This document shows positions 34,300 to 35,519 of a stretch of DNA of 49,795 bases, in pieces. The stretch is from assembly GCA_030426475.1 (NCBI GenBank), contig JAUHYR010000010.1:1-49795 (forward strand). Reading direction: 5' to 3'. Each line of letters begins with the position of its first letter. Positions within the stretch are counted from its first letter, which is position 1. This stretch comes from Bacteroidia bacterium. GTDB taxonomy: Bacteria; Bacteroidota; Bacteroidia; Flavobacteriales_E; Vicingaceae. Both the position numbers and the translations under genes were made by a program. Below the pieces are notes generated by a model. The model had not been told where the DNA came from. It saw only the letters and a list, made by a program, of their open reading frames with translations, and did no database searches.

Positions 34300-34342
34300 A
34301 CAAACCTAACTATGAAAAACACACGGTTGTGTGTACCTTGAA

Positions 34343-34984
34343 TTATATAGTACCTTTAATTTCAACAGTAATTATAATGTCGTTAGATAATACCATGTCT
34401 TGCATTTTTGGCATATAAGAAACATCGTAATTTTGTCTATTAAAAGTTAATGTTCCGGTAATGGTAAAATTGTTTCCATCAACAGCAACATTTAAATTTT
34501 CTACTTTCTCTTCACCTTCTTTTCCTCTAACGGTTAATTTACCCATTGCTACATTGCCATCAACTGAATTAACAACAAATGAAGCTGTAGGATGATTCGC
34601 TACATCAAAAAAATCAGGAGATTGCAGGTGACCAACTAATTGCTCTTTGGTTTTTCCTTCTTCAGGGTTATAATTTTCATCTGTAGGAGTCATTGTTGAC
34701 ATGTCAACAACAAAGTTTCCACCGGTTACTTTATCGCCTTTCATTGTAAAGCTTCCTTCTTTAAGCTTTATATTACCTTCATGCGAATAAACCCCAAGCA
34801 TTTCACCTTTCCAGTGAACATTTGATTCTTCTAAATTTACATTAACTGTCTTTTCAGATTCGTCAACTACCTCTTCAGTAGTTTCATTTGAAGTTGTTTC
34901 TTCTACTTCTTCACTTCCACCACATGATGTTAGTGCAAAAGATGTAGCGATTATTGTAGCTACCATTAATGTCTTTGTTTTCAT
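34343..34984 (-). CDS. YceI-like lipoprotein
   Basis: A 213-residue lipoprotein: signal peptide with lipobox FALTSC (Cys21), an acidic linker rich in Glu/Thr, then a YceI lipocalin-like domain (about 50-213; VHWKGEMLGVYSHEGNIKLKEGSF, FVVDMSTMTPTDENYN, HLQSPDFFDVANHPTASFVV, LTVRGKEG, LTFNRQNYDV). YceI-fold proteins bind isoprenoid-type lipids. I chose the inner ATG because the lipobox peptide begins there and the -7 element lies 27 bases upstream; an earlier in-frame ATG would overlap the -7 element. Divergent from a marR-pirin operon, sharing its promoter region. Confidence 0.9.
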   Translation of the reverse strand: MKTKTLMVATIIATSFALTSCGGSEEVEETTSNETTEEVVDESEKTVNVNLEESNVHWKGEMLGVYSHEGNIKLKEGSFTMKGDKVTGGNFVVDMSTMTPTDENYNPEEGKTKEQLVGHLQSPDFFDVANHPTASFVVNSVDGNVAMGKLTVRGKEGEEKVENLNVAVDGNNFTITGTLTFNRQNYDVSYMPKMQDMVLSNDIIITVEIKGTI

Positions 34985-35011: not shown

Positions 35012-35043
35012 CAAATCTACGTACAATATTTGTTCTAAACAAA
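35012..35043 (-). promoter_or_regulatory. Promoter of the yceI gene
   Basis: On the minus strand TTTG (35043-35040), 20 bases, then TAGATTTG (35019-35012): a full match to the Bacteroidota consensus. The transcript would start near 35008, with a leader of about 24 bases. The -33 box lies inside the central palindrome. Confidence 0.75.
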
Positions 35044-35057
35044 TTTTGTTTAAAACA
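35031..35057. promoter_or_regulatory. 27-bp palindromic operator shared by yceI and marR promoters
   Basis: TGTTCTAAACAAA-T-TTTGTTTAAAACA: 12 of 13 base pairs are symmetric, and the inner 17 bases (35036-35052) are perfect. The two TTTG -33 boxes of the divergent promoters lie in opposite arms. A MarR-family dimer encoded right beside it is the obvious candidate to bind here. Confidence 0.7.
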
Positions 35058-35074
35058 TTTTTTATTTAACTTTG
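35045..35074 (+). promoter_or_regulatory. Promoter of the marR-pirin operon
   Basis: TTTG (35045-35048), 18 bases, TAACTTTG (35067-35074): a full consensus. The element ends four bases before the ATG at 35079, so either the message is leaderless or translation starts at the second in-frame ATG (35115). Confidence 0.72.
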
Positions 35075-35078
35075 CAAT

Positions 35079-35519
35079 ATGGTAAGTCAAGCAAAAAACA
35101 ATAATGAAGTCTTAATGGTAGAAATCATTAAAACATCAGGGTATATTGAAAGAAAGATAACAGAAGTATTAAAGGAATTTGAAATTACCCCTATTCACTA
35201 CAATATTTTACGAATATTAAAAGGAGCGCATCCAACTCCACTATCAGCAGGTGAAATAAAAGAGAGAATGCTATTTCCTAACCCTGACGTAACAAGATTG
35301 ATAGACAGAATGATAAAGAGGAATATAGTTGAGCGAAACATCTGTGAAAAAAATAGAAGAAAAATGGACATTCTTATTACTAAAGACGGAATTGAATTAT
35401 TAAAAAAAATATACCCGAAACTTGAAAAAGCAACCAATCAGTTTTTTAAGAATGAGATTAATGAGAACAATGCCAAAGCACTCACTAAAAAATTAGAAAA
35501 AATAAGAAATTCAATATAG
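35079..35519 (+). CDS. MarR-family transcriptional regulator
   Basis: A 146-residue winged-helix regulator. IIKTSGYIERKITEVLKEFEITPIHYNILRIL is the dimer/first helix region; PLSAGEIKERMLFPNPDVTRLIDRMIKRNIVERNICEKNRRKMDILITKDGIELL is the DNA-binding wing-helix, with the DVTRLIDRM recognition helix. The family usually represses its own divergent operon and is released by a small ligand. Two starts are possible: 35079, which the promoter places at the transcript 5' end, or 35115 (MVEIIKTSG), with a 35-base leader. It precedes the pirin gene by two bases. Confidence 0.88.
   Translation: MVSQAKNNNEVLMVEIIKTSGYIERKITEVLKEFEITPIHYNILRILKGAHPTPLSAGEIKERMLFPNPDVTRLIDRMIKRNIVERNICEKNRRKMDILITKDGIELLKKIYPKLEKATNQFFKNEINENNAKALTKKLEKIRNSI

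Follow-up and report, generated by a model that had tools for sequence, protein, structure and literature searches.

A tandem TTGTT-N3-AACAA element as the probable operator of a MarR-family regulator between divergent yceI and marR-pirin promoters in Bacteroidota

The MarR protein of Escherichia coli recognizes boxes of the form TTGCC-N2-GGCAA, which make up two operator units (marO) at its own promoter. MexR of Pseudomonas aeruginosa, in turn, binds two adjacent sites that overlap the divergent promoters of mexR and mexAB-oprM, one of them its own. A MarR autorepressor acting between divergent promoters is a textbook mechanism and an ordinary form of bacterial control. Here we describe a comparable arrangement in the window (the whole 49.8-kb stretch of DNA analysed), where a gene for a YceI-domain lipoprotein diverges from a marR-pirin gene pair (Table 1). 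Comparative sequence data make it very probable that the adjacent MarR has its operator in the region between them, where one or two dimers would repress both divergent promoters; we favor this regulator because the site is conserved together with marR, yceI and pirin, and because its sequence class correlates with the recognition helix of the protein.

Table 1. Features of the yceI/marR-pirin locus, in window positions
Feature	Position	Strand	Basis
yceI, YceI-domain lipoprotein	34346-34984	-	Pfam PF04264 (E 6e-20); sequence reading
Predicted yceI transcription start (5' UTR of 23 nt)	35007	-	position rule (inference)
-7 box of yceI, TAGATTTG	35012-35019	-	sequence; conserved in L003, the closest relative (GCAAATCTA)
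Putative left operator unit TTGTT-CTA-AACAA (MarR-box-like, dyad 35036)	35030-35042		exact TTGTT-N2/3-AACAA in 16/20 related loci
27-bp palindrome (centre T35044, where the two operator units meet)	35031-35057		sequence, palindrome scoring
-33 box TTTG of yceI, within the operator	35040-35043	-	sequence; 20 nt to the -7 box
-33 box TTTG of marR, within the operator	35045-35048	+	sequence; 18 nt to the -7 box
Putative right operator unit TTGTT-TAA-AACAT (one mismatch, dyad 35052)	35046-35058		third half-site TTGTT at N3 in 9/20 loci
-7 box of marR, TAACTTTG	35067-35074	+	sequence
marR, MarR-family winged-helix repressor, 146 aa	35079-35519	+	Pfam PF12802 (E 3e-9), PF01047 (E 6e-8)
pirin, two-domain cupin, 288 aa	35522-36388	+	Pfam PF02678 and PF05726; gene order

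The gene names yceI, marR and pirin proposed in a first-pass annotation hold on the strength of Pfam matches and gene order. For yceI, the TTG start of the mechanically called open reading frame was replaced by the ATG at 34984, giving a protein of 213 aa before the stop codon (34345-34343) that begins with a predicted lipoprotein signal (MKTKTLMVATIIATSFALTSC, lipobox ...FALTSC). The YceI protein had no sequence match in the PDB from which a ligand could be inferred. A terminator-like short hairpin with a T-run lies just 3' of this gene (34319-34334, minus strand). The scores of the MarR protein exceed the gathering scores of both PF12802 and PF01047, which places it among the MarR-family winged-helix regulators; it reached no NCBIfam equivalog cut-off and hence carries no equivalog name, and the nearest solved structure is that of another MarR protein (3u2r, E 5e-15). 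In the alignment, its recognition helix corresponds to NPDVTRLIDR (with Asp at position 70, D70) and the wing cysteine, Cys89, falls in ICEKNRR. The pirin gene begins 2 nt past marR, in the same operon.

The motif TTTG at -33 is the primary-sigma consensus of Bacteroidota, and both strands of the intergenic region carry it together with a -7 box of the type TAnnTTTG at suitable spacing. We found the two TTTG boxes one in each arm of the palindrome, and measured distances of 20 nt (yceI) and 18 nt (marR) to the respective -7 boxes, all as the first-pass annotation had it; the span that it covered (35012-35081) extends from the yceI -7 box through the marR ATG. A generic sigma-70 scan of the region was discounted as uninformative, since Bacteroidota use other boxes. 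Mapping of transcription starts in Flavobacterium psychrophilum located TAnnTTTG at -12 to -5 (PMC9723704). By this rule, the +1 of marR would be the A of its own ATG (35079), and because the predicted start coincides with the ATG, the marR mRNA is probably leaderless, a class that accounts for 5.5% of the F. psychrophilum mRNAs whose starts were mapped (PMC9723704). By comparison, TAnnTTTG is seen 3-6 nt 5' of a start codon in 18 of 105 MarR homologues. Relative to the starts predicted from the position rules, the operator would occupy nearly equal positions at the two promoters, -49 to -21 for marR (centre at -35) and -51 to -23 for yceI (centre at -37).

The palindrome originally reported for this region, TGTTCTAAACAAATTTTGTTTAAAACA, was reproduced in full: 27 bp, with 12 of 13 symmetric pairs about T35044 and a perfect inner 17 bp (35036-35052). 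It outscores every other palindrome in the window, and under a first-order Markov model odd 27-mers of such symmetry are expected only 0.14 times per window and 0.003 times per intergenic region at 19% G+C. No second copy of the inner 17-mer with 0 or 1 mismatches is present in the 2.87-Mb genome, and the 15 other genomic sites recovered at 2 mismatches equal the count of a reversed-pattern control. A second inverted repeat of similar quality, absent from the first-pass annotation, overlaps the first one (12-nt arms at 35023-35034 and 35038-35049, 92%).

The comparison set comprised about 100 MarR homologues, with 105 upstream regions in all, and 20 loci from the same MarR branch as the window's protein. 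A MarR homologue is present in 81 of 100 related genomes, and the three genes yceI, marR and pirin are found together in many Bacteroidota. Of the homologue loci fetched, over half have yceI and/or pirin next to marR, in varying gene orders. Of the 20 own-branch loci, 16 have an exact TTGTT-N2/3-AACAA upstream of marR or of the gene that opens its operon (vs. about 0.1 expected); the repeat has the 5-N2/3-5 form of a MarR-type operator, lies at the regulator's own promoter and is conserved in orthologues. Broken down by spacing, these loci hold TTGTT-N2-AACAA in 10 cases, TTGTT-N3-AACAA in 6 and AACAA-N3-TTGTT in 9 (0.04-0.10 expected for each), with 0 matches at neighbouring spacings including N1 and N4. 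The full set of 105 MarR upstream regions gave 14 exact operator matches, vs. 0.2 in dinucleotide shuffles. The N3 core is present in L001, L002, L003 and L042, whose MarRs group with that of the window in a well-supported clade, in L047/L048, and in the long-branched L059, whose placement in the tree is unsure; L043, from the same clade as the window's MarR, has a diverged N3-like site. The exact site is absent upstream of some D-type MarRs (L050, L079 and L043). The closest relative, L003, belongs to another family; its MarR is 47% identical, the divergent yceI/marR order is the same, and the alignable intergenic region includes the operator TTGTTGTAAACAACAATTGTTTGAAACAA as well as the yceI -7 box. 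This conservation of the site with its gene neighbourhood supports the adjacent MarR, the ligand first suggested for the palindrome, as the most likely one.

As judged from this comparison, the conserved unit is a 12- or 13-bp TTGTT-N2/3-AACAA element, and the window carries two of them in tandem, 16 bp apart. The right unit is imperfect, with a weakly conserved fourth half-site; its counterpart in L003 is a perfect TTGTT-TGA-AACAA. Since tandem palindromes are automatically palindromic about their junction, the 27-bp palindrome can be understood as the junction of the two units. Thus, of the initial idea of a dimer sitting on the palindrome, the coverage of both promoters stands, while the conserved unit proves to be TTGTT-N2/3-AACAA in two tandem copies. 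The proposed core TAAACAAA-N-TTTGTTTA does not recur letter for letter in the aligned relatives, although its AACAA-N3-TTGTT part does so in 9 of 20 loci. A single MarR dimer bound to the 27-bp palindrome, symmetric at 35044 and with the flanking units as by-products of AT-rich symmetry, would account for the central dyad being the best palindrome of the window and for the fixed spacing of AACAA-N3-TTGTT where it recurs. We nevertheless regard this alternative as unlikely, as TTGTT-N2/3-AACAA is the commoner arrangement (16/20), stands alone in L004, L011 and L051, and is built like the E. coli MarR box in its geometry. Occupancy by a pair of dimers, or by one dimer at the left unit with a weaker right site, would fit better than one central dimer and appears the likeliest arrangement; one dimer may suffice, given the imperfect right unit and its weakly conserved fourth half-site.

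Two pattern scans that ignored gene context (one of the phylum with up to 2 mismatches, the other of the class with exact matches) together yielded matches in 10 foreign genomes; in 7 of these (G057, G216, G236, G146, G448, G241 and G355) the match sits at a promoter belonging to a marR or yceI homologue. The matches in G016 and G519 (inside coding sequence) and in G205 (intergenic, beside unrelated genes) were taken as chance. Taken by themselves, the numbers of matches do not greatly exceed the reversed-pattern control, and it is the gene context that carries the information. In both G241 and G355 the site lies upstream of a yceI-marR operon (L047 and L048; in both, yceI is the first gene of the operon, ahead of marR, with the site in front of it) and also in front of another yceI that is not linked to this operon (L055 and L056). 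Such placement suggests yceI as a core target of the site, and a possible regulation of several YceI proteins in trans by one MarR in these two genomes. The unlinked yceI genes, at about position 1500 of L055/L056, have the same tandem operator, and the one in L055 is located downstream of a reductase-like ORF. A search of the window's own genome with the 28-bp tandem pattern at up to 3 mismatches gave no other convincing tandem site. The next-best tandem match there (G000:C114:45347-45374, TTGTTAGCAACAATACTCATTGCCAACA) has 2 mismatches and is symmetric.

Occurrence of the site at an unlinked yceI in G355 and G241, together with a second, distant MarR homologue in the window's own genome (G000:C31, E 6e-5), would also be compatible with use of the site by a different regulator, namely a paralogue of the adjacent MarR encoded elsewhere in the genome; we consider this quite improbable, as across families the distribution of the site parallels this MarR branch and its type of recognition helix. 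A chance AT-rich palindrome with no regulatory role, which a 19% G+C intergenic region would favor, has hardly any likelihood given its low expectation per such region and its conservation with gene context.

A sister branch of Bacteroidota MarR proteins (e.g. L013, L019 and L030) shares the protein family and the autoregulatory position of the site, often followed by pirin, but differs in its operator, TGTATATACA, and in the residue at recognition-helix position 70, which is Asn where the window's MarR has Asp. The sister operator is found exactly in 29 of 105 upstream regions (L013, L019, L020, L030 and 25 others). Residue 70 is Asp in all 14 proteins paired with TTGTT and Asn in all 29 paired with TGTATATACA, with none crossed. 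The corresponding Fisher p of 1e-11 is overstated, because the tree shows a single evolutionary switch; the way in which residue 70 tracks the operator class is suggestive, and not independent evidence.

From the above, we infer binding and repression by MarR, occupancy by two dimers, and release by an inducer, in the following way. The two TTGTT-N3-AACAA units would overlie the -33 boxes of yceI and marR alike; the left unit, the better of the two, would take up one MarR dimer, and a second dimer would probably sit on the right unit. Bound MarR would exclude sigma factor and RNA polymerase from both promoters, either occupancy being able to block both -33 elements, and the outcome would be autorepression of marR-pirin combined with co-repression of yceI. 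Ligand binding or thiol modification would then release MarR.

Cys89 of the MarR protein (35343-35345) is located in the DNA-binding wing and is a possible thiol sensor; 67 of the 105 homologues have a cysteine there. Oxygen and iron limitation induce pirin genes in Bacteroides fragilis, and do so independently of FurA (PMC11304471). In view of both observations, a redox or electrophile/lipid signal to MarR is plausible and may serve as a lead. Within the open-access literature, we found no paper joining MarR, YceI and pirin, and the combination of MarR, YceI and Bacteroidetes appeared only in an unrelated review; the MarR-YceI-pirin module is apparently undescribed. Tentatively, and with a likelihood that we place slightly short of even, these features may together reflect an undescribed conserved Bacteroidota regulon for an envelope/redox response, in which a MarR clade with leaderless marR would co-control YceI proteins and pirin via tandem TTGTT-N3-AACAA, its specificity having been switched between sister clades by the Asp-to-Asn change at residue 70. 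The analysis offers a concrete candidate operator code for a widespread Bacteroidota MarR-YceI-pirin module, and the two natural operator classes provide material for studying how MarR recognition helices select half-sites.

Overall, the locus resembles both of the described systems. It has in common with E. coli MarR/marO a MarR-family repressor and two units at the regulator's own promoter, the 5-N2-5 geometry there being close to the 5-N3-5 geometry here. On the other hand, the half-site is TTGTT rather than TTGCC, a divergent lipoprotein gene and a downstream pirin gene take the place of marAB, and the wing Cys89 is at a different position from Cys80 of the E. coli protein. With P. aeruginosa MexR it shares a MarR-family regulator and two adjacent sites over divergent promoters, including that of the regulator itself, whereas the MexR target is an efflux operon and the operator sequence is another one.
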